Source: Allocoleopsis franciscana PCC 7113
Lineage (GTDB): Bacteria; Cyanobacteriota; Cyanobacteriia; Cyanobacteriales; Coleofasciculaceae
DNA: 50,464 bases
Assembly: GCF_000317515.1 (NCBI RefSeq)
Contig: NC_019761.1
Span: forward strand, 1-50,464
Direction: 5' to 3'
Shown here: positions 13,788 to 47,650 of the stretch, in pieces
Position numbering within the stretch: the first letter of the stretch is position 1
Layout of the letters: every line of letters begins with the position of its first letter
Notes under the pieces: model-generated
Databases searched by the model: none
What the model saw: the letters and a program-made list of their open reading frames with translations, nothing else
What the model was told of the DNA's origin: nothing
Made by a program: the position numbers and the translations under genes

Positions 13788-14840
13788 TTATTCGACAACA
13801 GCCGAACTGACTTCTATGTCAGAAGCACTCCTCGATTCTGGAAGCTTTGGAATCGGACTTGAGGGTAGAACTTCCACTGTGATTGGAGCGATTGCGCGAA
13901 GCGCACCAGCAAAGCTGATCGCTTCTGTCACCTCATTAGCCTCTACCTGATTGATTAGTCCATCAGAAACGATCCAACTCAAAAATCTCGCCGAACTATC
14001 CATCGGCTGAATGTGGAGATAAACAGCGACGGATTGAATTTGCGAGTGTCCTAAGGTATGCTGTACCAAATGTAGTGGCGCTCCTCGCTCCAAAGCATGA
14101 CTTGCGTGGGCATGTCTCAACCAATGCGGACTGACTGGTGCGTCAATCCCTGCTTTTAGAGCCGCCGCTTTGACAATTCGCATCACCATTGAGCGGCTTA
14201 AATGTCCCCCTTTTTTCCGCGAGACAAACACAGGGTCACTCGCACTCGCTGTCCCTCTTAAACGTTCCACAGCCATCCATACTGGAGTTGGAAGCCAAAG
14301 ATAGCGAGTTTTTCCCCCTTTTCCGTACACCACCAGTTGTCCCCCACCCTGTTTGGCAACCAGATCGCGCCATTTCAAACCGCAAATCTCGGAAACTCTT
14401 AACCCCGTTGTATAGGCCAACAACAGCAAAACTTTGTTGCGATCGCTCGTAGCATTCTCGATTAACCGCACAACGTCCTGCTGGGTGAGCAACCGTTCAG
14501 CTAAGCGATTGCGAACTTTAGGAGGCTTCAGTTTTAAAGCCACGTTAACGGGGCAATAACCCGCTTCGTGGGCAAAGCGAAACAAAGACTTCAACGTATT
14601 GACAATCCGAGCTTTGGTGGCAGATGCTAAGTTCCCCCGACTGTCCACATACCTGTAGAGGTCTACTAAAGTCACTGCTTTTAAAGGCTTATTGACCCAA
14701 GCTAGGAACTTAAGAGCTTCCTCTCTATAGACAGCACGGGTGCGATCGCTTTTAGCGTGCAACCACATCCACAATAGTTCCTGGTCTTCCACGCCGTCTT
14801 CTGGCGCAGAGCGATCGGGAGCCTTCGGTTTGGCTCTCAT
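13788..14840 (-). CDS. Tyrosine recombinase (phage integrase / Xer type)
   Basis: This 350-residue site-specific recombinase has a SAM-like N-terminal core-binding domain (about 20-120; RTRAVYREEALKFLAWVNK) and a C-terminal catalytic domain. The catalytic set is visible: Arg in TTGLRVSEICGLKW, Lys in GKGGKTRYLWLP, HxxR in SPHWLRHAHASHAL, His in HTLGHSQIQS and the nucleophile Tyr in VAVYLHIQP. A ~55-residue C-terminal extension after the catalytic Tyr is unusual for XerC/D. The Tn7-like transposon is inserted 67 bases upstream of its ATG, so any native promoter has been displaced. It may resolve plasmid multimers or mediate integration. Confidence 0.9.
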   Translation of the reverse strand: MRAKPKAPDRSAPEDGVEDQELLWMWLHAKSDRTRAVYREEALKFLAWVNKPLKAVTLVDLYRYVDSRGNLASATKARIVNTLKSLFRFAHEAGYCPVNVALKLKPPKVRNRLAERLLTQQDVVRLIENATSDRNKVLLLLAYTTGLRVSEICGLKWRDLVAKQGGGQLVVYGKGGKTRYLWLPTPVWMAVERLRGTASASDPVFVSRKKGGHLSRSMVMRIVKAAALKAGIDAPVSPHWLRHAHASHALERGAPLHLVQHTLGHSQIQSVAVYLHIQPMDSSARFLSWIVSDGLINQVEANEVTEAISFAGALRAIAPITVEVLPSSPIPKLPESRSASDIEVSSAVVE

Positions 14841-14906
14841 GAATTCCTATGCAAATAAACAGGAGATTTTGTTGCATTCACTCTACCACATGCTTAAGTC
14901 TCAAAA

Positions 14907-14911
14907 AAGTA
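14907..14911. repeat. Target-site duplication AAGTA, left copy
   Basis: The five bases AAGTA directly precede the transposon terminus TGTCGG at 14912. The same five bases follow the right terminus CCGACA at 20489-20493. A 5-bp duplication is the known signature of Tn7-like transposition. Confidence 0.9.
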
Positions 14912-14917
14912 TGTCGG

Positions 14918-14999
14918 TTTGCACATAAGTTGAAAATCGTTACGCATAACGTGAAAATTTGACACATAAGATGAAATTTATTTGCACATAAGCTGAAAA
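14918..14999 (+). repeat. Left-end TnsB binding-site repeats
   Basis: Four related ~16-19-bp repeats lie at the left end: TTTGCACATAAGTTGAAAA (14918-14936), ACGCATAACGTGAAAA (14942-14957), ACACATAAGATGAAAT (14962-14977) and TTTGCACATAAGCTGAAAA (14981-14999). Spacing is about 20-24 bases. Multiple subterminal TnsB sites are the norm for Tn7-like ends. Confidence 0.85.
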
Positions 15000-15055
15000 G
15001 GCTCCCACAACCACTATTGTTTGGGGATTAACCTCAGATAACGGCAAGGAGTGAA

Positions 15056-15724
15056 GTGCCATCGGGAGCAGCCAGAGCCAGAAAAATCACCAATGCAGGC
15101 AACCGCAAGGTTATCGGCAAGTTTCCCAGCTTAAAGATGAACGCGGTTATCTGGTGGGAGTCGCAGCTAGAACGCGACTACATCTACCTGCTCGAAATCG
15201 ACCCAGAAGTCCTGTCCTATGGCGAACAGCCCTTTACGATTTCCTATACCGACAAAGGGAAACCCAGAAGGTATACACCCGACTTTGTGGTCACTAGGCC
15301 CCAAAAAACACAAGTTGTAGAAGTTAAACCGTCTAACCAGGCTCAGACCGAGAAAAATCTCAATCTCTTCCGAAAAATCGCTCCGATTTGCACAGCTAAC
15401 AACCAGGAGTTCGTTGTTGTCACCGAGCTTCGGATTCGAGTGCAGCCAAGACTCAACAATATCAAGCTGCTCTACAGATATGCCAGAGTACCCCTATCGC
15501 TCTCCAACTATCTAGATTGCCTGCAATATTTTCACTCCACCGAACCGATTTGTCTACTGAATGCAGAGCGAGACTTGAAAGAGAGAGGAATTAATCGTTC
15601 TTTAATGTTGCGATTGCTTTGGTGTGGTTTTCTGGTGACTGATTTGATGCAACCCATTAACGCAGAAAGTCTAATTCGACTCTCAAAAGAAGCTCCTAGT
15701 TGGGAGAGATTGAAAATCCAATGA
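15056..15724 (+). CDS. tnsA: TnsA-like endonuclease subunit
   Basis: This 222-residue restriction-endonuclease-fold subunit makes the 5' strand cuts that let Tn7-like elements move by cut-and-paste. Catalytic residues fit the TnsA pattern: Glu in WWESQLERDYIYLLE, Asp in RRYTPDFVVTRP and ExK in TQVVEVKPSNQA. The C-terminal half is the TnsC-interacting winged-helix region (INRSLMLRLLWCGFLVTDL). The GTG start at 15056 follows AAGGAG closely (about 4 bases). It overlaps tnsB by ATGA. Presence of TnsA sets this element apart from type V-K CASTs, which lack it. Confidence 0.9.
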   Translation: MPSGAARARKITNAGNRKVIGKFPSLKMNAVIWWESQLERDYIYLLEIDPEVLSYGEQPFTISYTDKGKPRRYTPDFVVTRPQKTQVVEVKPSNQAQTEKNLNLFRKIAPICTANNQEFVVVTELRIRVQPRLNNIKLLYRYARVPLSLSNYLDCLQYFHSTEPICLLNAERDLKERGINRSLMLRLLWCGFLVTDLMQPINAESLIRLSKEAPSWERLKIQ

Positions 15725-17898
15725 CCCGAATCTCTTTAAGAAAAGGACTACATTTAGCATGGCAAGGTCGTGAATATGTGATTGAGCAATGTTTAACAAC
15801 AGGAGAAGTTCTTCTTCAAGACGTACTCACCAATCATCTATCCAGCCTCAAAGCCACAGCCTTAACTCAGTTGCTCGTTCAAGGGGAGCTTGAGTTTATT
15901 GAAATTGAAGCTACAAGAGGAAAACAAAGTTATTCCCAAAAAGGATATATTAGCGCAGATTTTACCCAGCTTCCCTCAGAATTAAGAGAAGAATCGAAAA
16001 GAAGATACAGGTATATAGAACGGGTTCTCTCCAACAACATCTTGAAGCGAACTGCGTTAAACTTAAAACCCATTATCGACCAGGTGGCTCTTGAAATTGA
16101 AGATAGCCAACCTCCCTCATGGCTGACACTCTGGAGATGGCTAAAGGATTACGAAGCATCGGGAAGAGATATTCGCTCTTTAGTACCCAAATATGTATCC
16201 AAAGGCAATCGTCAACCCCGACTCAACCCAGAAGTCCGGAAAATCATCTCCAAGGCAATTGAACAAGTGTATCTCAAACCCTCTCAAGCCTCCGGTACTG
16301 ATGTTTATGAACGGGTAATTATCGAGATTAATCAGTCTAATCGGCTGCGAGAAACTATCGGGCAAGACTCCTTAGAAATCCCCAACATTGCAGCTATCTA
16401 TCGTGCTATTCGCCAATTAGACCCTTACGTCAAAGCCGTGGGTCGCTATGGCAAAAGAATCGCCAGCCAGATGTATGACCCGGTTCAAAAAGGTCCGCAT
16501 CCACTCCGTCCCTTAGAAAGGGTGGAAATTGACCATACTAAATTACCACTGTTTGTTGTGGATACCCAAACCCGGATGCCGATTGGTACTCCTTGGCTGA
16601 CCAGCGCCATCGATAAGTATTCAGGAGTGGTACTGGGTTATTACGCCAGTTTTGAGCCGCCTTCTTATTTATCGGTGATGCAATGCCTACTGCACGCTAT
16701 TCGCCCTAAAAATTATCTTCATTCCCAGTTCAAGAGTGTGGAAAATACCTGGGATACCTACGGACTGCCGGAAGTAATTGTCGTTGACAACGGCAAAGAG
16801 TTTTACAGCACTCACTTTGAAGATGCCTGTCTTCAGCTCGGAATCGTCATCCAATACTCTCCCCCCAAAATGCCTTGGTACAAGAGTGCTATAGAGCGGT
16901 ATTTCGGAGCTTTAAATAGTCAGTTGCTTTCGGATGCTCCTGGCAAAACCTTCTCTAACTTCCTGCAACTGTCGGATTACGACCCCAAAAAGAATGCGGT
17001 AATTTCGTTTGAAGCCCTGCAAGAAATTCTCCACATTTTTATTGTCGATATCCATAACCAGAGTTCCCATCCCGAACTGAAATCTCCTCGCTTTAAAGTT
17101 TGGGAATTAGCGATTACTGAATGGACGCCAGCTTTACCGCCGTCTAATCAAGAACTGAAAGTTTTAATGGGCGGCATCACCACCCGAAAAGTTAGCAGAA
17201 GAGGGGTGGAGTTTGAAGGTCTGCTCTACAACAGCAGTGAACTGGCGCGGCTGCGGTCAAATCATCAAAGTACTGAGAAAGCAACGGTTAAGTATGACCC
17301 CACTGATTTATCTTGCATCTATGTCTTAGACCCCACAACTCATCAATTTTTAGAGGTGCCTGCGCTTTCTCTTGAATATACTAAAGGGTTGACCCTTTGG
17401 CAGCACCAAGTCGTTAAACAGCTGGCACGTCAAGAAGCCGAAACAGTGGACATTGTGGCTTTGTCCTTAGCCAAAGAAAAGATTCAACTCATTGTCGAGC
17501 GGGAATGGAATTCATCAAAGAAAGGTCGAACTCGTACTGCAATGGCGAGGTGGTTGGGGATTGGACGCTCTGGTTCTGGTGAGTGTAGTCAAAGCCAAGA
17601 AACGTTCGACAGCAGCAGTCAACCTCATTCGATATCAGGACTCTCAGACTTGGGCAGTACCCATAATCCCAATCCTGCCCAAGAATCTCTCTCATCACCA
17701 GAACGGCCACAGACATCTCAACCCAAGTCCCGTCGTCGGTCATCCACTAACACGGGTGATAAGAAAGTGAACTCAGCAGCTCAACCCGAAAACCGTGATA
17801 CTTCAACCGATAATTGGCAACCAGATTTATCCGGATGGGATGTCAGCATCGGGTTACCAACTTACCTCAGTGAGACCGAACCCGATGCAGATAGATAA
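15721..17898 (+). CDS. tnsB: TnsB-like DDE transposase
   Basis: This 725-residue rve/DDE transposase joins the transposon 3' ends to the target. The catalytic triad is visible: Asp in ERVEIDHTKLPLFVVD, Asp in EVIVVDNGKEFYS and Glu in PWYKSAIERYFGALN. N-terminal HTH domains (from about residue 90 to 250) read the end repeats, followed by a Mu-type C-terminal barrel. A long low-complexity linker rich in Ser, Pro and Gln precedes a short conserved tail (DNWQPDLSGWDVSIGLP), the expected hook that contacts TnsC. I prefer the ATG at 15721, overlapping the tnsA stop as ATGA, over the TTG at 15700. Confidence 0.93.
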   Translation: MTRISLRKGLHLAWQGREYVIEQCLTTGEVLLQDVLTNHLSSLKATALTQLLVQGELEFIEIEATRGKQSYSQKGYISADFTQLPSELREESKRRYRYIERVLSNNILKRTALNLKPIIDQVALEIEDSQPPSWLTLWRWLKDYEASGRDIRSLVPKYVSKGNRQPRLNPEVRKIISKAIEQVYLKPSQASGTDVYERVIIEINQSNRLRETIGQDSLEIPNIAAIYRAIRQLDPYVKAVGRYGKRIASQMYDPVQKGPHPLRPLERVEIDHTKLPLFVVDTQTRMPIGTPWLTSAIDKYSGVVLGYYASFEPPSYLSVMQCLLHAIRPKNYLHSQFKSVENTWDTYGLPEVIVVDNGKEFYSTHFEDACLQLGIVIQYSPPKMPWYKSAIERYFGALNSQLLSDAPGKTFSNFLQLSDYDPKKNAVISFEALQEILHIFIVDIHNQSSHPELKSPRFKVWELAITEWTPALPPSNQELKVLMGGITTRKVSRRGVEFEGLLYNSSELARLRSNHQSTEKATVKYDPTDLSCIYVLDPTTHQFLEVPALSLEYTKGLTLWQHQVVKQLARQEAETVDIVALSLAKEKIQLIVEREWNSSKKGRTRTAMARWLGIGRSGSGECSQSQETFDSSSQPHSISGLSDLGSTHNPNPAQESLSSPERPQTSQPKSRRRSSTNTGDKKVNSAAQPENRDTSTDNWQPDLSGWDVSIGLPTYLSETEPDADR

Positions 17899-18904
17899 AA
17901 AGTCGTTACAAACTATGACCTTTAAAGAGCGGCTCTACATTGTCAATAACATCTACGTCGTCTATCCCCGGTTCAAGGAAATTCTAAGTGCCATCAATGA
18001 TTGTCGTCATTTTTCGGACTTGAAAGATGAACCGGAATGCTTATTTTTAAAGGGTGCGACGGGAGCCGGGAAAACTACGCTCATCAAGAGCTATGAAAAA
18101 GACTATCCCAGAAAAGAAACTCCAGAAGGGACTGTAGTTCCAATCCTGTCTGTCACGATTCCTTCCCCTGCTACCGTCAAAAGCGTCGTCAGTAAGCTGC
18201 TGTGGGAATTGGGAGACCCAGCCTATGAGCGGGGCACTATCAGCACTCAGACAATCCGGCTGATTGGATTGATGAAAGATTGTGGGGTATCTCTTGTTTT
18301 CTTAGATGAATTCCAGCATTTTATTGACCGAGATTCAGCTAAAGTCCTCAAAACGGTATCCGACTGGTTGAAGGACTTGATATTAGATACAAAAGTGCCA
18401 ATGGTCTTAATTGGACTGCCGGAGGCGGAAACTGTTTTCCAGTTCAACCCGCAATTGAGCCGGAGGTTTGCTAATCGGCATAATCTTAGCCCTTTTGAGT
18501 GGTCGGTGGATGCTGGGAAAGAATTTCGCACGTTTCTCCACGCAGTCGAGTCTCAACTTCCCTTATTGGAGCCGTCGGATTTGGCTAGTGAGGAAATGGC
18601 ACTCCGTTTTTACTATGCCTCAGACGGAATTGTCGCCTACGTCATGAAGCTGGTTCGGTATGGAGCACATCTAGCCTTGAAGCAAGGGCAAGAAAAACTG
18701 GACTTAAATGTTTTAGCGATTGCCTTTGACAAGTATGTCAAAGCCGATAAGCCGACTAAGCATAATCCCTTTTTAACTGATGAATTTCTGGGTGATAGTC
18801 AAGAGAATATGACTTTTTTCAAGCCAAATCAGGTCGGAGCTACTAACTCCAGAATCAAACCGAAGAAGAAAACTAAAAAGGCATCAGATGTTTTGCATAA
18901 ATAG
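17885..18904 (+). CDS. tnsC: TnsC-like AAA+ regulator
   Basis: This 339-residue AAA+ ATPase forms filaments or rings on target DNA and links the targeting subunit to the TnsA/TnsB transposase. Walker A is LKGATGAGKTTLIK, Walker B is VSLVFLDEFQHF, and an arginine-rich sensor stretch reads LSRRFANRHNLSPFEW. I choose the ATG at 17885 (MQIDKKSLQTMTFKERLYI), which overlaps the tnsB stop by 14 bases; the 30 upstream codons are the out-of-frame tnsB tail. The basic C-terminus (RIKPKKKTKKASDVLHK) may contact DNA. Confidence 0.92.
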   Translation: MQIDKKSLQTMTFKERLYIVNNIYVVYPRFKEILSAINDCRHFSDLKDEPECLFLKGATGAGKTTLIKSYEKDYPRKETPEGTVVPILSVTIPSPATVKSVVSKLLWELGDPAYERGTISTQTIRLIGLMKDCGVSLVFLDEFQHFIDRDSAKVLKTVSDWLKDLILDTKVPMVLIGLPEAETVFQFNPQLSRRFANRHNLSPFEWSVDAGKEFRTFLHAVESQLPLLEPSDLASEEMALRFYYASDGIVAYVMKLVRYGAHLALKQGQEKLDLNVLAIAFDKYVKADKPTKHNPFLTDEFLGDSQENMTFFKPNQVGATNSRIKPKKKTKKASDVLHK

Positions 18905-18927
18905 AGTTCGAGAGCAGTAAGTGTTGA

Positions 18928-20139
18928 GTGAAAAGTAGAAGACTGTTGAGGAGACCTCGTCCCTATCCCGATGAAAGTCTGGCGGGTTATATCATCCGAC
19001 TTACTGAGGCCAACTACTACTCGTCTCCTCAGTGGATTTTTCAAATGGCCGGCTTGAGAGCAAGAGGCATATATGGCAATGTCTTCAATCGTGAGAAAGA
19101 TGATTTATCTAGGCTGAGCAATATTTCTGGTGTCGAGGCAGATATTCTTTGGTCGATGGCATTTCCTGCCAATACCTTGATGTACCCTAAAGCTGTGAAG
19201 CAAGTTAAGGTTTTTGACCATGTTGTTCCCACCGATGCTTTGAATCGCCAGCAGATTCAACTGTGTCCGATTTGTTTACAAGAAAAACCTTATTATCGTT
19301 TCTTATGGGAGTTATCAATTGTTAGTGCCTGTCCTCTTCATCATTGTTTACTGATTGATAGATGTCCCCAGTGTCAAGAGCCGATTCACTGGTCTAGACC
19401 TAAAATAGCTATATGCTCCTGTCAATTTGACTGGCGCTCTTTTCAGCCACCAGCCGTGTCAAGCGAACACATTACCTTATCCAATCTTATCTATAAGCTG
19501 TGTCATCTAGATGGTTTGCCTTCTGAGAATCACTTAAGAGTATCTTCAGATAATCCTGTGACTCAATTAAATTTGGGGAGCCTAGTGAATCTTTTAGTTT
19601 CTCTGTTAAGATTTTGTCGCCTTCCGGGAATTAGATACCAAGTGTTTCCGCCCAAAGAAGCAAGTTTAGGATTTGACTTGAAATCGGCGAGTGAGTTTGA
19701 GCGAGTTTTTGCTTTATTGAAAAATTGGCCGAATAACTTCTGTCAATTAATGGATAGGCACGAGGTTTTTCTTGGATATGGTGCTTCTAACAGGTATGTT
19801 TCTAGCTGGCGGTTCAGAGATGTCCAGATTTTTTTTGAATCAGTGTTTATTTGGTTCGCTCAAAAGCCTTGGGAATTTATCCAAGAGGTATTCGCCGATT
19901 ATTTTGAGAGATTTTTGAGAAAGGTTGCCATTAAAAATATCCAAATATCTTTCTATAAAAATTTTCGCTATTACTCAATTTGTATCTCGTTAACTCGAAA
20001 AACTCGTCTAACCGAAAAATTAGCATCTAGGTCGGAGCTAGAAGGACTAACCTTAGCTAAACTTTTTGCTGAAAGTCGAATCGATATGTATAACGAAACC
20101 CTTTTCTTTCGGATGAGATACTTCCCTGACTGCTTCTAG
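18928..20139 (+). CDS. tniQ: TniQ/TnsD-family target selector
   Basis: This 403-residue protein has an N-terminal TniQ domain (MKSRRLLRRPRPYPDESLAGYIIRLTEANYY, the classic opening, here two adjacent blocks). Zinc-ribbon motifs follow: LCPICL with CPLHHCLLIDRCPQCQEPI and CSCQFDW. The ~200-residue C-terminal part (LKNWPNNFCQLMDRH, FRYYSICISL) is AT-richer and probably binds DNA. The size lies between the short TniQ of CASTs and the long TnsD. It is the only visible targeting subunit. The start is a GTG at 18928; no better start is in frame. Whether it reads a fixed attachment site near the tyrosine recombinase gene is open. Confidence 0.88.
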   Translation: MKSRRLLRRPRPYPDESLAGYIIRLTEANYYSSPQWIFQMAGLRARGIYGNVFNREKDDLSRLSNISGVEADILWSMAFPANTLMYPKAVKQVKVFDHVVPTDALNRQQIQLCPICLQEKPYYRFLWELSIVSACPLHHCLLIDRCPQCQEPIHWSRPKIAICSCQFDWRSFQPPAVSSEHITLSNLIYKLCHLDGLPSENHLRVSSDNPVTQLNLGSLVNLLVSLLRFCRLPGIRYQVFPPKEASLGFDLKSASEFERVFALLKNWPNNFCQLMDRHEVFLGYGASNRYVSSWRFRDVQIFFESVFIWFAQKPWEFIQEVFADYFERFLRKVAIKNIQISFYKNFRYYSICISLTRKTRLTEKLASRSELEGLTLAKLFAESRIDMYNETLFFRMRYFPDCF

Positions 20140-20355
20140 ATTCTAGATGTGTAGAGCCTGAGAAAAATACCTCCTCTCTCATTCGGAGCTTTCGACCCAA
20201 AACCCTCACTGATGGAAGTTCTCCCTTTAGGGAGAACTTCCCCCTTCTAGAATGATTATTATTCTTTGATAATCAGCTCTAGTTCTCCTCCAAGGTTCTG
20301 AAAGCCTTGACCGAGTTCCGGGTTTCGGCTGAAATTCAGTGCATGAGGGTCGAAA
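20140..20355 (+). terminator. Hairpin terminator after tniQ and non-coding right arm
   Basis: A perfect 11-bp stem with a 4-base loop, GAAGTTCTCCC / GGGAGAACTTC at 20215-20240, is followed by CCCCTTCTAG and an AT-rich stretch. It probably ends the tns operon. The rest of the right arm up to the end repeats holds no gene that I can support. Confidence 0.6.
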
Positions 20356-20482
20356 ATTTCATCAGATGCGCCATAGAGGTAGGAAATTTTCATTTATTGG
20401 GTCAAAATTTTTCATCTTATGTGCAAATCAGAGGGCTGAAAGTGCCGTCAGTCCGTGGGAAAAATTTCAACTTATGTGCAAA
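20356..20482 (-). repeat. Right-end TnsB binding-site repeats
   Basis: Inverted relatives of the left-end repeat occur as TTTCAACTTATGTGCAAA (20465-20482), TTTTCATCTTATGTGCAAA (20409-20427), TTTTCATTTATTGGGTC (20387-20403) and a weaker ATTTCATCAGATGCG (20356-20370). The outermost copy mirrors the outermost left copy and is followed by CCGACA at 20483-20488. Confidence 0.8.
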
Positions 20483-20488
20483 CCGACA

Positions 20489-20493
20489 AAGTA
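20489..20493. repeat. Target-site duplication AAGTA, right copy
   Basis: AAGTA follows the transposon end CCGACA and matches 14907-14911. From here to 20749 lies the sequence that originally stood upstream of the tyrosine recombinase; I see no gene in it. Confidence 0.9.
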
Positions 20494-32807: not shown

Positions 32808-34340
32808 GTGTCAGACCAGTTATCGTCATTCAACCCAAAAGCTAATCTTTACATTTCTTATCCATCCCAAGACCAAGTTTTACTCGATGAGTTTCTCAAG
32901 CTTTTAACAGCGTTGCCGTGGGAGAATATTACCATTTCCTCTTATCATGAAGGACAAATTGCAGAACTCGCGCAAACAGAGGATATTGAATCACGGCTTA
33001 GTGCCGCTGATGTAGTGGTGATGATAGTGAGTTCTACCTATCTTGATTCGGTGAATAGGAGAAGATGGGAATTAGACGAAATAGCTGGAAAATCGATTGT
33101 TATTGCCATCAACGTCAGTCCAGTGAGCTTAAAAGCGTCTCGACTCAAAGGTTTTTGTTCTTCATGGGTTGATGATTCTCCTGTTACCTCTTGGTCAGGT
33201 CAGGTGGAGAAATTAAAAATTGCTGCCGGAGCTATTTATGAAGCCGCTGCTGCAATCGGCTCAGAATCAAACGTTTCAGATGACCAGTCCAATTCGGAAA
33301 TAAATGACGATTTAGCCAGCGATGATTCCTATGCTACAAGAGGACTGGAGCTGCGTGTACAAAGGAGTTCAGTTCTGCCTGTTTCTCCCATTCCCTTCAA
33401 TTCAACACATCAGGAACAACCAGACTCTGACAAGCCCGATGTGGCTCAATTTCAACAAAAACTGGAACAGGTTTACCGCATCCAAGAACCGCCTTCACCC
33501 TCTACTCTCACTAACAAAGACTTGGTGGATTGTAGCGTCTTTAGTCCTCCTGCGGTAGCTGGTGGCGATACGTTTTTGGTTCAAGTTTTTGTTCACCTCC
33601 CTGAGCAAGCTGAAATGGCCAAACAACAGGCTCAAGAGTTTGACTCGGAGGCTAAACAATTGGGGATAAGAAGTTTAGGACTTCCGATTGAACGAGGAAC
33701 AGCACTGACTTTTTCTCTCTCGATTCCTAATCTTGAAGTTGATGAACCCAATCAACAGTTAGTTTGGAAGGGGAGAGCCGAATCAGTGCAATTTGGAGTA
33801 ACGGTTCCTGCTGATTTGACTCAGAAGACAGTGATTGGAACGATTACTGTGAGCCAAAATAGTATTCCCCTTGGACATCTGAAATTCAAGCTATCGATTA
33901 CTCCTGCTGCTGCCACTACTGCAAAAGAACCTCAACCTGTAGGAGACGCGGCACGAGTCTACAAAAAAGCCTTTGTTTCTTACTCCTCTAAAGACCGTAA
34001 GGAAGTCTTGAAACGAGTACAAGGACTGGCTGTTACGGGAATTGAGGTGTTTCAGGATATTTTGGATTTAGAACCAGGCGATCGCTGGGAGAGGGAACTC
34101 TATCGTAATATTGATGAGTGTGACCTGTTTCTGTTGTTTTGGTCTACAGCGGCTAAAGAGTCGAAGTGGGTACTGAAAGAGGCGTTATATGCTCTGGAAC
34201 GGCAAGGGAAGGATGAACTCAATCCACCTGAGATTATTCCTGTGATTATTGAAGGGCCTCCTGCTGTTTCTCCTCCGGATGAACTGCAACATCTTCACTT
34301 TAATGACAAACTTCTTTATCTGATAGCACTGTCTAACTAA
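32808..34340 (+). CDS. Protein with two TIR domains flanking a beta-sandwich
   Basis: This 510-residue protein begins with a TIR-like domain (about 10-145): KANLYISYPSQDQVLLDEFL, SAADVVVMIVSSTYLDS, RRRWELDEI. A low-complexity linker is followed by a beta-rich middle domain (about 240-370; DCSVFSPPAVAGGDTFLVQV, LGHLKFKLSI) and a C-terminal TIR (about 385-510): KKAFVSYSSKDRKEVLKRVQ, FQDILDLEPGDRWE, CDLFLLFWSTAAKESKWVLKE. The WVLKEA Glu is in the position of the NADase catalytic Glu. TIR enzymes act as NAD+-consuming immune effectors or signal-molecule makers. Start GTG/ATG at 32808 follows AAGGAGC. It is followed 18 bases later by a Uma2 gene, probably one operon. Confidence 0.85.
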   Translation: MSDQLSSFNPKANLYISYPSQDQVLLDEFLKLLTALPWENITISSYHEGQIAELAQTEDIESRLSAADVVVMIVSSTYLDSVNRRRWELDEIAGKSIVIAINVSPVSLKASRLKGFCSSWVDDSPVTSWSGQVEKLKIAAGAIYEAAAAIGSESNVSDDQSNSEINDDLASDDSYATRGLELRVQRSSVLPVSPIPFNSTHQEQPDSDKPDVAQFQQKLEQVYRIQEPPSPSTLTNKDLVDCSVFSPPAVAGGDTFLVQVFVHLPEQAEMAKQQAQEFDSEAKQLGIRSLGLPIERGTALTFSLSIPNLEVDEPNQQLVWKGRAESVQFGVTVPADLTQKTVIGTITVSQNSIPLGHLKFKLSITPAAATTAKEPQPVGDAARVYKKAFVSYSSKDRKEVLKRVQGLAVTGIEVFQDILDLEPGDRWERELYRNIDECDLFLLFWSTAAKESKWVLKEALYALERQGKDELNPPEIIPVIIEGPPAVSPPDELQHLHFNDKLLYLIALSN

Positions 34341-34971: not shown

Positions 34972-35331
34972 TTACCTCAACTGCCGTTGAGAAAGCGCTG
35001 CTGCTTTTCGTTGGTTTGCCTGAGCTGCTTGTTGATTTCCCAGACGAGTATAAGCTAGCGCTCGGTTATGGTAGGCATTGGCATTATAAGGATCTAATTC
35101 GATCGCCTTATCGTAATCTGCGATCGCCTGTTGATAGTTGCCCTGATAGTAGTAGGCTACGCCACGATTGATATAAGCGTTAGCATAAGTCGGATTAAGA
35201 CTAATTGCCCTACTACTATCCGCGATCACTTTGGGGTAATTCTTCTGCTCGTTATAGGCCGCTGCTCGATTGCTGTAAGCTTTAACGAGGAATGTTGTCG
35301 CAGAGGTGGCGATCGCTATTCTTCTCATCAA
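34972..35331 (-). CDS. Small TPR protein overlapping the WD40 gene end
   Basis: The 119 codons contain about three tetratricopeptide repeats (AYSNRAAAYNEQKNYPKVIA, AYINRGVAYYYQGNYQQAIA, AYHNRALAYTRLGNQQAAQA). The 5' 50 bases overlap the 3' end of the caspase-WD40 gene in another frame (ATG in a HIP1-containing stretch). It could be a separately translated, coupled partner, or a former C-terminal extension of the upstream protein after a frameshift. TPRs bind protein partners. Confidence 0.65.
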   Translation of the reverse strand: MMRRIAIATSATTFLVKAYSNRAAAYNEQKNYPKVIADSSRAISLNPTYANAYINRGVAYYYQGNYQQAIADYDKAIELDPYNANAYHNRALAYTRLGNQQAAQANQRKAAALSQRQLR

Positions 35332-38300
35332 GGGTGGCTAGATAGTCACGCGCTCGTTCACAACCCCGTTGCAGCAGTTCATCTAATCCTCCTAGCTGCC
35401 ACAACTTAACTTTGCCATCCTCGCCAACAACAGCCAACTTGCTGCCATCGGCACTAAAACCTACATTTTTAATCTCGCCTTTATACCCTTGGAATTTCAT
35501 CAACTGCCTACCCTGCAAATCCCACAATGTAACGGTACCGTTATGAAATGAAGTGGTGGCAAATAAACTGCCATCAGCATTAAAATTAATACTTTTTGAA
35601 TTGTAAGTTTCTTTTCTTTTGGTGTTCAATGTAGTCGCTAGTCCTGAACTATCCAACCAAACAACCCGGCCTTCATTTGCGCTAGAAATTATTCTAAAGC
35701 TGCCATTTTTTTGAAAATTGATGTCATTGATGCTATCGATTATATTACCAAGTTTGATTGAAAATTCATCTGATTGTTGACCGCTTAATTTCCATACTTT
35801 TACTACTGTATCAGCTTGAGATTTTTCGGTAATTTGATCGCTCATGGTAGCAATTTTCTGACCATTCTGTGCCCAACTGATAATCTTCACTGCATTATTT
35901 GGATACGCTTGAAATTTATTTAACTCATTGCCATTTAAATCCCAAAATCGGACAAAACCGTCTTTTCCTCCAGTAACCAGTTGCTGACCATCGGGGCTAA
36001 AATTGATACTTTCAATTTTGACTTTTTCAATTTCTACTAGAGAGAATTGATGTTCAGTTTCGGGTTGTAGCTGTTCGACATCCCATAAGTGTACAACGCC
36101 ATCATCTTCTTGAGTAACGAAGTGCTTACCGTCCGCGCTAAAGATCATATTTTCAACCGCACCTTGAGGCAAATTGAATTCACCTAATACAGAAAGATCT
36201 GATGAGGACAACGGATTGCTGCTATACAGACGAACAACATGACCTGTGGTAATTAGTAGCTTGCCATTTGAGCTAAAGCTCGATTGGTCGGCTTCATTCA
36301 AGTATGGATCTTCAATTGCTTTTTCCCAATTGTTATTCTCCAAATTCCATCTCCACCATTCACTGCTAACCGCATCGTGTCCACCTGTGATTATTAGTTG
36401 CTTGCCATCAAGGCTAAAATCAATCCTATCGATCTGATCAAATTCTGGTGATATATAGCTCACTTTCCCAGATGATAAGTTAAGTAATTCAACATGCGTT
36501 TGCGATTCATTCATCTGCTTCAATGTAGCCATCAATAAATGACCATCAGCGTTGAAACTTATACTAATATTATTCTCTGGCAATGGCTCTACCCTATTTT
36601 GTTCTAAATCCCACAAATAGCTAATGTTATCACTACCATCCTCTTTCTTAGCAGCTTTAATAGCCAACTGCTTGCCATCAGGGCTAAAACTGATATTCTT
36701 AAACGAGCCTTCAAGCTGTGCTAATTCATTGACAATCTGCTTACTTTCCAGATTCCATAAGCGAACAGTTCGATCTTTTCCAAAGATAGACAGCATTCTA
36801 CCATCAGGGCTAAACTTGGCTCCCTCAACTAAATTTCCTGATAATGGGCTACACGTCTTAGTCTCTGAATCCCATACACAAGCCGTTTCGTCACCTTTTT
36901 TTATAGCTACAAACAGTTGATTATCCTGCCCCAAAAACACATCTAGTACCTTGCCTTTAGGTAACTGCCAATAGTTGCGTTCTTTGACAGAATAAACTGC
37001 ATGTTGTAAAGTTTCTAGAACTTGATTTTGCAGCAGCTTATTTGGTTGTAATGGACCCCACAGTAGCCAGTGTTTTCTCGATTTACCGGCTTGCAAACTA
37101 TTAATCAGAGCATTTAATGTCAATTGGTTTGTACGTAATCGGGTTTCTGAAGATTCTCTAGCAGTACTTATTTGACCTATTAATGAGTTTCTCAGTTCCC
37201 TTAAAGCCCAAATAGTTAACCCACTCGATAACAGAATTACGCCTATTGCAATCCCCCAACGCAAATTAGTATTTCTACGTCTTTGCCAAACGCTTCGTTG
37301 CACAAACTCAGTTTCTACTTGGTTAAACCAATAGTCATAAGATTTGAGTCTCTTTTTTAATACATCGAGGTAAGGATTTCCATTCCAAAGAAACTGTCCC
37401 TTTCTCTCTCGCCGATGTTCTTGGGCATTTTTCTGGCTTTGGTGGTTCAACCAGTCTTCAACGGAGTCCAGCTTCTTGTCCACCAAACTCAGAACAGGTT
37501 CAGTCTTTCCTAACAAACTTGATGACTGTTCTTTAGTTTTCCACTCAAGGGCGGCTGGCGTGAGTCGCCGTTGCAGGGGTAAATCTTCCTGCTCCTCCTG
37601 CTGCCATTTCTGTAATTTATCCCAGCTTCTAACTAAGAAATCATGAGCTGGCTCGACATAAGGTTCTCCCGTTTCCTGCCCACTGACAATCAAGCGAGCA
37701 TGATTGAGCCGTTCTAGAACTAGCTCAACTCGTTGATTTTCTTCCTCATCCAGTTTGTTCGGGTCTTGCTTATCTGCATACACCAATTCCGACAGAGGCA
37801 CCCGACGCCGTGCTGACTCCCCACCTTCAGTTGTCACCATCCGCAGCATCACCCGCTGCATCGTAGCTCTGTGAGCATCATTGGGTAAGCCGTCATATTC
37901 TTGATTCGCTCTCCGTGTCAGTGAACCTGCAACACCTCCCTCTTTGTCAAAGTCAGCATCAAGTATTAGGGCGCGATCGCTCGTTTCCTGAAGTCTCCAC
38001 TTCTCGGCGAGTTTGAGGTAGAGTTCGCTAAGAGTGAAAGATAGTAAGGGTAAAGCTCCGGGCATCTGCCCAACTTCATCAATCAGCTTATCGACTAAAT
38101 TAGATGGCTCGAAGTACAGTGCCATCTCTGTTGCTGGACGCTCAATCGCTTGCCGCAACTCATCCGAACGCATAGCGCGGACTGGGAAGCGTGCCTGTGT
38201 CCAATGGGACTTGAGCGCCTCAGAACTGAGGAAGCGCGGTTCAAAATCAGAACGCAAAGTCACGATAATGCACAATTGTGGCAGAGTAGCAGCCAGAGTT

Positions 38301-39997
38301 TCCTCTAACAGTTTTAAGAATTGCTGTGACTCATTCGGTTTACTATTCTGCTTATCTTCCTGAGTATTGCGACTGAGAGTGATTAACTCCTCAAACTGGT
38401 CAATCATTAGTAACAGCCTGACACCGACATGCTGTTGGCTCCATGCCGCTATAATCTCAATAAACTGTTTTGAGTCTGTCTGTAAGCGCTCACTGAGTGG
38501 ATTGATGCAATCCAAAAACGCTTGCTTTAATCGCTCCCGCTCATCATCAGTTCGACATAAATTGTTCAATTCCTCGAACTGCTCAACGACTAGCAACAGC
38601 CTCTTGTCTGGAGTTCTAGAATTCCAGGTGTCAGCAATTTGATTAAATTTGTTTTCTTCTTGTTCTAAGCGTATTCTTTTATCGGTTCTTGCTTCAGCCC
38701 CATCGAACGTATCATAAATTTCTTGGTCTAATCGCTTGAGTTTCTCTTGCAGAATCTCACTGATAAAATCCAGATTTTCTAGCAGGTTGATGACAGGGAC
38801 GCTAGTAATGGGGAGAATTGTTCTCGCTAATGCCGAGAAGGGAGATTCTCCAGGGCGCATCGGTTTTAAGATGCACCACTCTTGGGAATATTTTTGCCGT
38901 AAACAAGGAATCAACCCAGCTTTAACTAAGCTAGATTTACCAGAACCGGAAGTTCCTAAAACGACAGTTAATTGACTATAATTTTCGTCAACATGAGCAA
39001 TCCGTCGATACAATTCTTCTATCAGTTCCTGTCTGCCAAAAAAGAATTGTGAATGCTCTTCCTCAAAAGCGCTTAACCCTCGATAGGGATTGTTGTTTTC
39101 ATTTAATTTCGGTGCAGGTTTTAATTTTAGATCGGCACCAGGAACGAGAAAGATAAACTCGCCGCGATCATGCTTTGATAACGTCCATAGTCCCGGCGTT
39201 TGGCGTTCCTGAGAACTAAGTTCTACATGATCGCGCAGGTAGAGATAAAGTTCTGCTGCCGTAATCACCCCATCTCCTGGCGGCTGACCTTTTTTGCCAG
39301 CCGGAATCACATCTCCCTCACCCCGCAACGCTTTAAATAGCCCCTCGGCAAAGGGTGAGTGATTAGCACCGCCTCGGTTATCGCAGAGAACGTCCAGGGC
39401 TTCTTGGTTATGTGCCGCCGACGTAATCGCTTGCCATGCAGGAGATTTGATAAAGCGATCGTAATGTTCTTTATGAACGACTCGCGGAATCACTGTCGCT
39501 AATCGGGTACTTGACCAACGAAATGTTCCGGCAAAACAACAATCAAGAATTACCAGTAAGTGACGACAGGAAAGTGCGGTCAAACATTCATGTAACTTCT
39601 GCATCAGTAGCAGATTTTCAGACTTTTCTACATCCGCATCCTGAGGCACAAGACACCCTGCTGGCCCCTTATCGCTATCGCGTGCTATTCCATGTCCAGC
39701 AAAGTAGAAGAGTAAGCGGTCATCTTTTGTCGGCTTAATTTCTTTGGGCAGTCTTTCCTCAAGCAGGATTAATAAATTCTGGAGCGTTGGTTTAAACTCA
39801 GTTTCATCGGTGATGAGAACCACCTCATCATATTGATGCTCTTTCTCTAATATCTCTGCTAGCACCTCAGCATCACGTCTAGCTGTCTTGAGTTTTGGAA
39901 TTCTGTTTTGGTATTCATTGATGCCAATGACTATTGCCAAACTACGCTTAAAGGTTGCTACTTTCTGTGCTTTGATTAGCGTGTTTGTTAATACCAT
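35282..39997 (-). CDS. Caspase-like peptidase fused to nSTAND NTPase and WD40 repeats
   Basis: This 1571-residue protein has, in order: a peptidase C14 (orthocaspase) domain at ~15-270 with His in LLFYFAGHGIA and Cys in LVILDCCFAGTF; an nSTAND1-type NTPase at ~300-770 (NPYRGLSAFEEEHSQFFFGR, Walker A LGTSGSGKSSLVKAGLIP); a transmembrane segment at ~945-965 (WGIAIGVILLSSGLTIW); and a C-terminal WD40 propeller region (~1030-1545; FSPDGKQL, VRLWNLESK). Two Walker-B-like motifs occur in tandem (RLLLVVEQFEELNN and RLLLMIDQFEELIT). It resembles predicted NTP-dependent conflict proteins of multicellular bacteria: WD40 senses, NTPase switches, caspase cleaves. Triggers and targets are unknown. Confidence 0.9.
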   Translation of the reverse strand: MVLTNTLIKAQKVATFKRSLAIVIGINEYQNRIPKLKTARRDAEVLAEILEKEHQYDEVVLITDETEFKPTLQNLLILLEERLPKEIKPTKDDRLLFYFAGHGIARDSDKGPAGCLVPQDADVEKSENLLLMQKLHECLTALSCRHLLVILDCCFAGTFRWSSTRLATVIPRVVHKEHYDRFIKSPAWQAITSAAHNQEALDVLCDNRGGANHSPFAEGLFKALRGEGDVIPAGKKGQPPGDGVITAAELYLYLRDHVELSSQERQTPGLWTLSKHDRGEFIFLVPGADLKLKPAPKLNENNNPYRGLSAFEEEHSQFFFGRQELIEELYRRIAHVDENYSQLTVVLGTSGSGKSSLVKAGLIPCLRQKYSQEWCILKPMRPGESPFSALARTILPITSVPVINLLENLDFISEILQEKLKRLDQEIYDTFDGAEARTDKRIRLEQEENKFNQIADTWNSRTPDKRLLLVVEQFEELNNLCRTDDERERLKQAFLDCINPLSERLQTDSKQFIEIIAAWSQQHVGVRLLLMIDQFEELITLSRNTQEDKQNSKPNESQQFLKLLEETLAATLPQLCIIVTLRSDFEPRFLSSEALKSHWTQARFPVRAMRSDELRQAIERPATEMALYFEPSNLVDKLIDEVGQMPGALPLLSFTLSELYLKLAEKWRLQETSDRALILDADFDKEGGVAGSLTRRANQEYDGLPNDAHRATMQRVMLRMVTTEGGESARRRVPLSELVYADKQDPNKLDEEENQRVELVLERLNHARLIVSGQETGEPYVEPAHDFLVRSWDKLQKWQQEEQEDLPLQRRLTPAALEWKTKEQSSSLLGKTEPVLSLVDKKLDSVEDWLNHQSQKNAQEHRRERKGQFLWNGNPYLDVLKKRLKSYDYWFNQVETEFVQRSVWQRRRNTNLRWGIAIGVILLSSGLTIWALRELRNSLIGQISTARESSETRLRTNQLTLNALINSLQAGKSRKHWLLWGPLQPNKLLQNQVLETLQHAVYSVKERNYWQLPKGKVLDVFLGQDNQLFVAIKKGDETACVWDSETKTCSPLSGNLVEGAKFSPDGRMLSIFGKDRTVRLWNLESKQIVNELAQLEGSFKNISFSPDGKQLAIKAAKKEDGSDNISYLWDLEQNRVEPLPENNISISFNADGHLLMATLKQMNESQTHVELLNLSSGKVSYISPEFDQIDRIDFSLDGKQLIITGGHDAVSSEWWRWNLENNNWEKAIEDPYLNEADQSSFSSNGKLLITTGHVVRLYSSNPLSSSDLSVLGEFNLPQGAVENMIFSADGKHFVTQEDDGVVHLWDVEQLQPETEHQFSLVEIEKVKIESINFSPDGQQLVTGGKDGFVRFWDLNGNELNKFQAYPNNAVKIISWAQNGQKIATMSDQITEKSQADTVVKVWKLSGQQSDEFSIKLGNIIDSINDINFQKNGSFRIISSANEGRVVWLDSSGLATTLNTKRKETYNSKSINFNADGSLFATTSFHNGTVTLWDLQGRQLMKFQGYKGEIKNVGFSADGSKLAVVGEDGKVKLWQLGGLDELLQRGCERARDYLATLDEKNSDRHLCDNIPR

Positions 39998-40122: not shown

Positions 40123-42255
40123 TTAAGTCGCTATCACTTTAATGCTTACTTGTTTTACCGTCCATCCTCGGCTTGGGTCAGCAATTACTTCTGCTTTTTT
40201 AGTTGTAGAAGGTTGGTCATCAGCACCCACAGCAGCTAAGAGTTCTTCTAGTGGGTTTCTGGGGGCTTTGAGTCCTCTTGTGCCACTGGGGGGAATGGGT
40301 TGGTCGAGGGATGGTAATGTCAGCCAGCGAAAGTCAGCTTGCCCAACGGTAGCAAACACTTTAAAGATTTCTGTCCCTTCTTGATATCCTTCGGGAAGAC
40401 TCATTTTTAGTGCTATCGGGTCTTTATCTTCATGACCGGGATCGATGGGAACAAAAGATGCTCCGTCCGTTAATATGTCAACTTGAGAAATTGACCAATC
40501 GTAACTTAAATCTAGTACAACAACATTGAGAACTTGGGAAGATTCATTGCGGATACGCAAGAAGATGGTTTCTCCAGCTTGTACAGTGGGATTACTAGGG
40601 TCATCAAAAGGCTGAGGTGATGGTCGTCTTCCTGGTCGATAGTTGGCTTGCTTGCCTATTAACTCAACCACAAGCTTTTTTGTTAGAGGTGTACCAAAAT
40701 TGTCCAGCTCTTCTGTAGCTTTATACTTCGTGAGATGTACCAGACGTTTCACTACTTGGGTAGCTGTATCACTCTCACCAACCTTTAGCGGTGGTCGTAA
40801 ATTAGGAAAAGGCTTTCCTGTAGGTTCACAAATTTCGTATTCACCTTGTTTGTTGATAGAGACTTGATAGTCGGCGACTGTATCGTCAGCCACTACTTTC
40901 ACCCAACCATTTCCCGCCAAAGCATCGGCAACCACTTGTAAGGCAGCTTTCTGATTTATCTCCTTTGGTGGTAAATCTTCTAGTTTGGTATTCTCTGGCG
41001 TACATTCAACCAAACGCACCCCCCGGATAAGCTCCACGGGGGCTGAAAGCATTACTGCACAACCCCCTTGTTCGATTTCTCCGGTACCCCGTGTCTTAAT
41101 AATTTCCGCCCAAGCGTCTGTTGCGCCGATTTCTGTAACTTCAGCTAGGGCTAATTGCTTGTCTTCTTGGGTAAAATCCCTTACTCCAGATGAATAGATG
41201 GCAAATAGTGAGCCTTCCTCTATACTTTGAGCTAAACCCGCATTGAATTTAACTCGAACCGGATTTTGGGCTGCATCGACCTGCATCACGGTGACAGCAT
41301 AATGAAGAGATGCTTCATTGCTGCCGAAAACTAAACGATTCCCCTCGCCTAGCAGCATGGGTGTTTGTTGTTGAAACTGGCTGTGAACCTTGGCGTTGAT
41401 GCGTTGATAGAGTTCCTTATAAGTCAGCTCTGGACTGCGGTTGGAGAGAGAATCCAAGAGCCAGTAAGTCAACGCTCCGTTACGTTCTTTACCATTAAAG
41501 GCATACTCATAGGCATATTCACTAGGACGACAAGCAGCCAATAAAACGTAGCCTTTTGCTTCAGGCAGCATACCAGCTAAGGCAGTTGCACTACGAGTTT
41601 CTTCTGTGAGGTTCTGCCAGCTTTTCACCAATTCCTCAACCGATGCAACTAAGCTTTCTGTTGGTCGCGGCGTTGTATCGACAGTATTTGCATCTGCACC
41701 TCGAATATCAGAATCTCCTGCTCGTGTTGCGCCTCCCGAATGACAACTATCTAACACAACCGTGACAACTAATCCCTTATCCACCATCCTTTGTAGGAGT
41801 GCTGCTAACTCAATGTCACGGAGATAGCGAGATGTTGGCAAGCCAATATCAGTGGGAACGAGCGCCTCATCAATTCCCTTCACTCCCTTAAGTTGCGGGT
41901 AATTTGTCACAGCACGTCCCCCGTGACCAGAGTAGTGAATATACACCTGATCTTGAGGTTGAGCCTTCTCGGTAATTTCTTTAAACTTCCCTACGATATT
42001 CTCGTAGGTGGGCAACTGCTCTGGTGGCTCAGATGGCTCAGAAGACCCGTCAACATTAGAAGCTGTGAGCTTGTAAATCTGTTCTGACAATAGATTGAAC
42101 TGGCGCTTTAGGAAAGCCTCCACATGGGTAATATCACGCACGCATCCCTTAAGGCTTTTATAAGAAGCACCATCAGGTAATTCATTAGGGAGATAGCAAT
42201 CGATACCTATCAGTAGGGCGTATAAATTAGAAGTTGAATTCGTTGGCTCGGTCAT
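40123..42255 (-). CDS. Orthocaspase with C-terminal DUF4384-like domain
   Basis: This 710-residue caspase-family protease has catalytic His in VYIHYSGHGGRAV and Cys in VTVVLDSCHSGGAT, followed by GYVLLAACRPSEYAYE. Orthocaspases cut after Arg or Lys and are usually Ca2+-dependent. The C-terminal half has beta-rich segments (AGETIFLRIRNESSQVLNVV, SQVDILTDGASFVPIDPG) like DUF4384. It lies 125 bases upstream of the caspase-nSTAND-WD40 gene on the same strand and may work with it. The ATG at 42255 is preceded by GAGGAAAG (minus strand). Confidence 0.88.
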   Translation of the reverse strand: MTEPTNSTSNLYALLIGIDCYLPNELPDGASYKSLKGCVRDITHVEAFLKRQFNLLSEQIYKLTASNVDGSSEPSEPPEQLPTYENIVGKFKEITEKAQPQDQVYIHYSGHGGRAVTNYPQLKGVKGIDEALVPTDIGLPTSRYLRDIELAALLQRMVDKGLVVTVVLDSCHSGGATRAGDSDIRGADANTVDTTPRPTESLVASVEELVKSWQNLTEETRSATALAGMLPEAKGYVLLAACRPSEYAYEYAFNGKERNGALTYWLLDSLSNRSPELTYKELYQRINAKVHSQFQQQTPMLLGEGNRLVFGSNEASLHYAVTVMQVDAAQNPVRVKFNAGLAQSIEEGSLFAIYSSGVRDFTQEDKQLALAEVTEIGATDAWAEIIKTRGTGEIEQGGCAVMLSAPVELIRGVRLVECTPENTKLEDLPPKEINQKAALQVVADALAGNGWVKVVADDTVADYQVSINKQGEYEICEPTGKPFPNLRPPLKVGESDTATQVVKRLVHLTKYKATEELDNFGTPLTKKLVVELIGKQANYRPGRRPSPQPFDDPSNPTVQAGETIFLRIRNESSQVLNVVVLDLSYDWSISQVDILTDGASFVPIDPGHEDKDPIALKMSLPEGYQEGTEIFKVFATVGQADFRWLTLPSLDQPIPPSGTRGLKAPRNPLEELLAAVGADDQPSTTKKAEVIADPSRGWTVKQVSIKVIAT

Positions 42256-46192: not shown

Positions 46193-47650
46193 TCAAACCT
46201 TCAACAGAACGCTAGTCACCTCACCCTTCCCAATCACAACCCTTGCTAAAAGCAGGTCGTAAAAGATTTCCCTCTCCGTCTGGGTCAAGGTGTACCAAAA
46301 ATTAATTTTTTTAGCCATCGGATGACGGAGTATCTGTTGGGCGATATCCTGAGTCGGAGTTGGCTCGGCTTCAATGGCTTTAAGGAGTTTTTCCTTAGCC
46401 TCTTTCAGCGCTGGATTAAAATCTGAGCCAGCAATCTGGTCAAGTTCAAAGTACTGTCTCTCCAGCTCAACTAACCTCTCGGATTTCGTGGTATTAGAAG
46501 GACTTTCACTCACTTGTTTGGAACGGAGAACAAGTTGGGCGATAATCGCCTGCTCAATTTTAAAAAGCCTGACATTTGGGCGATTGTCACAAACGGTTGC
46601 GGAATGCGGACAGCCATAATAAGCGTAGTCACGATTTTGTTTCAAATTACATTTAGCCCGACATTTCTCACAAAAGATATGCCCCGTTAAATAAAACTTG
46701 GCATCCACTTGACCAAATCTTTTGGTATTGGAGGCAAAGATAGCTTTTATTTCTTGCGCTTCTTCCTCATTAATCAGTCGCTGTTCTGGATGAGTGTCGC
46801 GGCGAATATCCCAATCATCGGGAGATTTCAAACTCCCATTACTCTTCAATTTATGATAGGCTGTATGTCCTTGAAAGACGGGATTTTGGAGCCAATACTT
46901 TAGCCCCCATATCGAAATGGGAAAGTTTTTAAACTCGGGTAAGTTGTCCTCCGAATTCTTTTGTAATCCATACACCTCATGAAGGTGTTTCAAGACTTTA
47001 GTTGGCTTCCTGACTAGCAAAAAATATTCAAACACTTCCCTAGCTATCTTGGCTCGACTAATGCGGACGAGTTTCGGAGAATCATCAGGTTCGTGAGAAA
47101 GCTCGGCAGCATTGTCGGGTTTATGGATTAGGAAGCAATAAGGAAGTGGTGTATGGTCGAGTTCATATTTTTCATTAACAATTAGGTAACTCCAGGGAGG
47201 CTGCATCCAAGCGGCATTTCGACTTCTACGGTAATCAAGACCTCGATTAACCCGTTCTTGTAGCATTCGGCTTTCATGAACCGAGAATAGGACTTGCAGG
47301 TCAGAGTGCAATTCTCCTGATGCTGTGTTGAAATCAACCTCACCTTGATCAAGTAATATCAGTTTAACTCCAGAAATTTTGAAAATTTTCTTGACTTCTA
47401 AATACAAGTATGCATTTCGTGCCAGCCTGTCCCAGCGAATCGCTCTAAGTTCTGAAATTTCCTGCCTTATCACTAGCTCTAAGACTTTTTTAAATTGGTC
47501 TCTATCTTGTTCACGACCTGATTCAATATCAAAATAAACTTTCTGAACTCCAGTATTGATTAATCGAGATATTTGCTGTTCTAAAGCATGGGTGTTGGCT
47601 TGTTCTTCCGTTGAGACACGAGCATAACCAATAATAGGTTTCAGTTTCAT
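46193..47650 (-). CDS. XisF-like large serine recombinase
   Basis: This 485-residue site-specific recombinase has a resolvase catalytic domain (PIIGYARVSTEEQANTHALE, nucleophile Ser; RAIRWDRLARNAY with catalytic Arg), a recombinase domain (FPISIWGLKYWLQNPVFQGH) and a zinc ribbon (GHIFCEKCRAKCN ... YYGCP). It belongs to the cyanobacterial XisF group, whose best-known member excises the fdxN element during heterocyst formation. Here it may act on plasmid or element junctions; no att site could be identified. The ATG at 47650 gives a family-typical start. Confidence 0.9.
   Translation of the reverse strand: MKLKPIIGYARVSTEEQANTHALEQQISRLINTGVQKVYFDIESGREQDRDQFKKVLELVIRQEISELRAIRWDRLARNAYLYLEVKKIFKISGVKLILLDQGEVDFNTASGELHSDLQVLFSVHESRMLQERVNRGLDYRRSRNAAWMQPPWSYLIVNEKYELDHTPLPYCFLIHKPDNAAELSHEPDDSPKLVRISRAKIAREVFEYFLLVRKPTKVLKHLHEVYGLQKNSEDNLPEFKNFPISIWGLKYWLQNPVFQGHTAYHKLKSNGSLKSPDDWDIRRDTHPEQRLINEEEAQEIKAIFASNTKRFGQVDAKFYLTGHIFCEKCRAKCNLKQNRDYAYYGCPHSATVCDNRPNVRLFKIEQAIIAQLVLRSKQVSESPSNTTKSERLVELERQYFELDQIAGSDFNPALKEAKEKLLKAIEAEPTPTQDIAQQILRHPMAKKINFWYTLTQTEREIFYDLLLARVVIGKGEVTSVLLKV

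Follow-up and report, generated by a model that had tools for sequence, protein, structure and literature searches.

A minimal Tn7-like transposon of Allocoleopsis franciscana that probably targets recombination sites used by Xer-like tyrosine recombinases of plasmids

The window analysed here is an entire contig (C8) of 50,464 bp, which is likely to be a plasmid because the whole contig has this length and carries ParA and DUF3854 genes. It contains an element of 5577 bp (14912-20488) flanked on both sides by the target-site duplication AAGTA (14907-14911 and 20489-20493). The 24-bp terminal inverted repeats, TGTCGGTTTGCACATAAGTTGAAA, are 100% complementary. The repeat at 14912-14935 (plus strand) forms the tnsA-side end facing the target and is the equivalent of Tn7R, and the tniQ-side repeat occupies 20465-20488 (minus strand). 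Four TnsB-type repeats lie on the tnsA side (14918, 14939, 14959 and 14981; 14918-14999, plus strand) and four on the tniQ side (20464, 20409, ~20384 and 20354; 20354-20482, minus strand). The initial annotation had counted four or more per end, which is about right, the third on the right-hand side being weak. Elsewhere on the replicon, a TIR-domain protein and two caspase-like proteins are encoded at 32808-34340, 35282-39997 and 40123-42255 as possible defence genes, and a large serine recombinase gene (46193-47650) does not adjoin the element.

The genes between the ends are all on the plus strand with open frames: tnsA, the PD-(D/E)xK endonuclease subunit of 222 aa (15056-15724; PF08722, 2e-15); tnsB, a DDE transposase of 725 aa counted from ATG (15721-17898; rve and Mu-transpos_C) with the triad D271/D356/E392 present; tnsC, an AAA+ ATPase starting at 17840 or 17885 and ending at 18904 (TniB, 3e-29; AAA_22); and tniQ, of 403 aa with two zinc fingers in the alignment (18928-20139; PF06527, 4e-25). 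These are the sole genes, with no cas gene and no resolvase. Together with the TGT..ACA ends, the arrays of TnsB sites and the 5-bp duplication, they make up a Tn7-like heteromeric transposon. Coordinates, repeats and open frames thus agree with the whole element described by the initial annotation, as does the gene content with its description as cargo-free, TnsA-bearing, devoid of cas genes and distinct from type V-K. The element occurs once in the 7.97-Mb genome, and searches found no Rfam match, tRNA or repeat array.

Outside the element, a gene for an Xer-like tyrosine recombinase (13788-14840, minus strand; PF00589, 7e-35; XerD/XerC-like) starts 71 bp from the tnsA-side end, which lies upstream of it. 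The residues R148, H239, R242, H265 and Y274 of this recombinase are kept in 15 of the 15 recombinases compared. Between gene and element lies a dyad of 11-7-11 architecture, ATGCAAATAAA-CAGGAGA-TTTTGTTGCAT (14849-14877), whose arms match at 9 of 11 positions (shuffle p = 0.03) and which ends 34 bp short of the element. Natural empty sites, with similar neighbouring DNA and no element, were found at two loci, L104 (genome G451) and L105 (genome G514), where the recombinase genes encode proteins ~89-91% identical to that of the window. At both junctions the target bases are present in single copy, and L104 reads through the point of insertion from both sides, with AAGTA occurring once. The element, which the initial annotation had bounded correctly, is therefore confirmed as a true insertion, and the candidate in which the recombinase is cargo of the transposon is ruled out by the empty sites. 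In both, the outer arms of the dyad are largely retained and the centre differs, as would be expected for the core site of a recombinase. We infer from these sequence features that the dyad is the core recombination site of the neighbouring enzyme. At homologues of the recombinase in other genomes, e.g. L107 and L109, clear 11-6-11 palindromes occupy a comparable position. For a second homologue in the same genome (contig C7), no clear 11-6/7-11 dyad was found close upstream and no element end.

To place the insertion in a wider context, named genomes, GTDB genomes and plasmids were searched with TnsB, which yielded a cyanobacterial family, and genomes occurring in two collections were counted once (L013 = L072, L014 = L044, L016 = L081, L017 = L143, L018 = L079, L019 = L049 and L015 = L045). 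A search of viral contigs yielded no relatives. Sixteen family insertions, miniature inverted-repeat elements (MITEs) included, lie 20-63 bp from a dyad, as measured from the arm end to the transposon end, some ends being uncertain by ~3 bp. Seven fall at 33-38 bp (window, 34; C2 MITE of the same genome, 36; L017, 35; L013, 35; L016, 33; L136 MITE, 37-38; L073, 34-35), another group at 59-63 bp (L024, 63; L026, 59; L075, 63; L074, 62; L047, 59; L102, 61) and two at 20-21 bp (L077, 21; L080, 20), and the L098 MITE stands alone at 41 bp. One insertion distance for the whole family was considered and rejected, as the distances follow subclades; in Nostocales plasmids, an accessory site may account for the class at 59-63 bp. 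At 33-38 bp, a dyad matching at 9 or more of 11 positions was found in 6 of 18 flanks, against 0.09-0.12 expected and a maximum of 3 in 2000 random draws. A P value for random insertion serves as no more than a rough guide, as insertions cannot be treated as independent and a single recombinase group supplied the site density. Whenever dyad and recombinase gene are immediate neighbours, the insertion occupies the flank of the dyad that faces away from the gene. Four loci (L043, L018, L046 and L014) have recombinase genes adjacent or close by and yet show no clear dyad at the usual distances, and no target was resolved for L045, L048, L076 and L078. Since the contig of L075 is chromosome-sized, the sites are mostly but not exclusively on plasmids.

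Among the copies counted, those at C2, L136, L098 and L102 are non-autonomous. MITE-like copies with family ends were seen at recombinase sites at C2:49122-49347 of genome G000 (L004, 9123-9348), at L136 (6742-7254) and at L047, L098 and L102. Several transposon ends occur at one site in L018, L047, L073 and L075, which indicates repeated use of the site. Family members also stand in tandem at one site in L073, L075, L018 and L019, suggesting weak target immunity between diverged elements. Other Tn7-like families were observed at the same plasmid recombinase sites (L025, 6195-11007; L144, 1-9000, of a Tolypothrix PCC 7601 plasmid), with ends such as TGTGACTGTAACCATAAG located 40-55 bp from the dyad and apparently including nested copies.

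The site belongs to the replicon rather than to the transposon. A dyad beside a recombinase gene was found without a transposon at L082, L083, L104, L105, L107, L109 and L099. A longer form of the dyad (~ACAAAATAAGNTACCCTTATCTTTTATCCGACATAAACTACGATTAA) is present on 39 Nostocales plasmids, and a recombinase of the C2 type, which matches this longer dyad, on 60 plasmids, some of them demonstrably without an element there. The longer dyad lies ~70 bp upstream of the recombinase gene in L099 and L102. In L024, L026 and L074 other DNA separates dyad and gene, and the element adjoins the dyad, not the gene. In L024, L026, L095 and L014, XisH/XisI or toxin-antitoxin-like genes separate the plasmid recombinase gene from the dyad or from the element.

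The neighbouring recombinases fall into several groups (window/L136/L046; the C2/L017/L024 type; L013/L043/L018; L073; L014) with only 18-27% identity between groups, and R-H-R-H-Y is present in all 15 compared. The dyad sequences vary along with the recombinase group. No single sequence motif common to all targets was found, the half-sites being just loosely similar, and some of them have a common A-rich pattern, roughly TGYAAAATAA.

TniQ also varies across the family. A zinc-finger core of ~170 residues is held in common in the alignment, and the total length ranges from ~185 to 415 aa, with short forms at recombinase sites in L077 (191 aa) and in L016, L024 and L074 (~265 aa). The initial annotation had singled out a mid-sized TniQ as the only targeting protein; a single TniQ of such a size is indeed present, but its size is not the common denominator, because proteins of ~185 to 415 aa occur at the same kind of site. 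For the same reason, a large C-terminal DNA-reading domain seemingly does not direct the insertion. The predicted TniQ structure is of low confidence (pLDDT 62, from 10 alignment rows), and its core alone was matched to ShTniQ and to the TniQ of type I-F3.

Among solved structures, TnsB scored highest against PseTnsAB (307 bits), followed by Tn6677 (261), ShTnsB (123) and Tn7 (80), and TnsC is nearest to VchTnsC, which is of the I-F3 type. The initial annotation had proposed types V-K and I-B as the frame of comparison, from which these affinities depart. In the TnsB tree, 24 family members form a clade (98/99) that is sister to Tn6900 (97/94) and stands apart from Tn402 and Tn7, whose reference branches are long. 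Insertion at recombinase sites is scattered through the family. A subclade nested within it instead occupies the 3' end of gyrB (L050, L052 and L054, as judged by where the coding frame stops) or of an xer-like gene (L051 and L055). These sister elements (L050-L055) sit just past the stop codon, with the target upstream of tnsA in L050, L052 and L054; L052 and L053 encode an additional TnsD-like TniQ of 620-647 aa.

Taken together, we conclude with a probability of about 0.7 that the element, a minimal but complete Tn7-like transposon, targets the sites at which Xer-like tyrosine recombinases encoded on plasmids recombine DNA. The targeting of sites beside these recombinases is well supported by the comparison of sequences, and from it we infer that recognition proceeds via the recombinase. 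The element would move by cut-and-paste through TnsA and TnsB, together with TnsC and the single TniQ. The dyad would serve as a crossover or resolution site of the recombinase, and TniQ with TnsC would recognize the recombinase-DNA complex, or its bend, rather than one DNA sequence; TnsC would then measure a set distance to the point of insertion by TnsA and TnsB. In this way the element would gain a place on a plasmid while leaving the plasmid's maintenance gene unbroken. We lean, with modest confidence, towards a stronger form of this proposal: the targeting factor that replaces a DNA-reading TnsD or Cas effector may be the tyrosine recombinase of the plasmid itself while it is bound to its resolution site, and a near-minimal TniQ may couple to recombinases that are structurally similar and unrelated in sequence, resulting in sequence-independent sensing of plasmids.

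The main argument for recognition of the recombinase-DNA complex is the combination of short TniQ forms and unlike dyads, and both bear directly on the alternative that TniQ itself reads the DNA at the recombinase site, as TnsD does at glmS, each TniQ having co-evolved with its own site and the recombinase being uninvolved. Long TniQ forms with an extra C-terminal region are compatible with this alternative, as are the identity of the window site and the L017/C2 site at 21 of 29 positions, the A-rich pattern of some half-sites and the extra TnsD-like protein in the subclade at gyrB. However, TniQ proteins of ~190-265 aa, close to the bare zinc-finger core, are found at the same kind of site; unlike dyads are used at one distance, e.g. 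ATTATCGAAAA in L073 and TTGTGACATTA in L136; and the subclade with a TniQ of 191 aa inserts 20-21 bp from two unlike sites (L080 and L077). We therefore regard direct reading by TniQ as rather unlikely. It is improbable that a DNA structure, i.e. a cruciform or bend at any palindrome, is preferred and that recombinase sites are simply one common palindrome. Many targets are imperfect (8-9 of 11) with a 7-bp centre, and the insertions were found beside recombinase sites, not beside terminators or other hairpins, although near-perfect palindromes do occur among the target dyads (11/11 in L073, 10/11 in L013) and L048 lies 4 bp from a perfect one.

The adjacency could also have been inherited if the tyrosine recombinase were a former part of the transposon, namely a cointegrate resolvase of the TnsR type. 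Tn7-like elements without TnsA often encode a resolvase of the tyrosine or serine type (PMC8649781); here TnsA is intact, so a resolvase should be unnecessary. Moreover, the recombinase lies outside the target duplication, recombinase and dyad are both present at the empty sites, and the C2-type recombinase occurs on plasmids without the element there, which makes an inherited adjacency highly improbable. The affinity of TnsB and TnsC to I-F3 proteins might suggest that the element arose by deletion from a CRISPR-associated transposon (CAST) and occupies an incidental position. This origin seems scarcely credible to us, as the family members examined are minimal and cas-free and there is neither an array nor a guide-like match to the target. 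The initial annotation had named related elements with the same ends and a Cas effector or CRISPR array as the observation that would speak for such a deletion derivative; none was found, and the kin measured are ~5-7 kb long, consist of tnsABC-tniQ and lack cas genes. A remnant of a V-K or other CAST is likewise ruled out by TnsA, the absent array and the cas-free kin. A hidden guide RNA was also considered and rejected: the element and the target region have no 13-mer in common, and there is no repeat array and no Rfam match.

Our analysis bears out the type and gene content proposed by the initial annotation, which had missed the tyrosine-recombinase sites as the target. Because the target is known at single-base resolution, empty sites are available and TniQ varies in size while the type of target stays constant, direction of TnsC by a bound recombinase is directly testable. 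If the proposal is true, recombinase-bound DNA would be a further target signal alongside TnsD, TnsE, TnsF and Cas effectors, and the Tn402-type strategy, known from mobile resistance, would have arisen more than once. The repeated insertion at a set distance suggests that the family finds plasmids by recognizing the recombination site or the enzyme on it. In the literature consulted, which did not cover the cyanobacterial survey of Hsieh and Peters 2023 (NAR), we found no report of Tn7-like targeting of tyrosine-recombinase sites.

Among known systems, the I-F3 CASTs (Tn6677, Tn6900 and Tn7016) are closest by descent, with the nearest solved TnsB and TnsC, the sister position in the tree and the TniQ fold in common. 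In contrast to these, the element is directed to a recombinase site with no guide match, and the Cascade genes and array that define I-B, I-D and I-F3 CASTs are absent inside its ends and those of its kin. Type V-K is excluded by the presence of TnsA and the lack of any cas gene or array. In Tn7, the tnsA-side end faces the target. The same orientation is seen here, and the element resembles Tn7 with TnsD at glmS in its TnsABC and TniQ/TnsD proteins, its set distance from a recognized site and its 5-bp duplication; it differs in lacking TnsE, in its distant TnsB and in having no gene 3' end as target. It is located upstream of a plasmid recombinase gene, and 3' ends are used by the sister subclade (L050-L055) alone, so that homing of the TnsD type does not describe it.

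Tn5469 of Fremyella diplosiphon, which we compared by description only, is also cyanobacterial and cargo-free with one TniQ, but is described as apparently untargeted (PMC11406308). In Tn6022, target selection involves a tyrosine-recombinase-like protein, TnsF, an inactivated selector carried by the transposon (PMC10293859). In our case, where such a role is proposed, the recombinase is part of the target replicon and has kept its catalytic residues. The closest parallel in strategy is offered by the Tn5053 elements, which have a single TniQ and insert at resolvase resolution sites that are abundant on plasmids (PMC11406308); Tn5053 and Tn402 are known as 'res site hunters' (Minakhina 1999, as summarised in PMC11406308). 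One TniQ and insertion at plasmid resolution sites would be common to both systems, provided that the dyad has the resolution role proposed for it. Nevertheless, TnsA is absent from Tn5053/Tn402, which carry their own serine recombinase gene (as in Tn402 of R751) and target the res sites of resolvases, whereas our element keeps TnsA and has no resolvase inside. Their TniA/TnsB, moreover, falls elsewhere in the tree on a long branch. The element would thus resemble Tn5053/Tn402 in its way of working, but is not a member of that group and represents a separate lineage; the sites that it uses would be those of tyrosine rather than serine recombinases.
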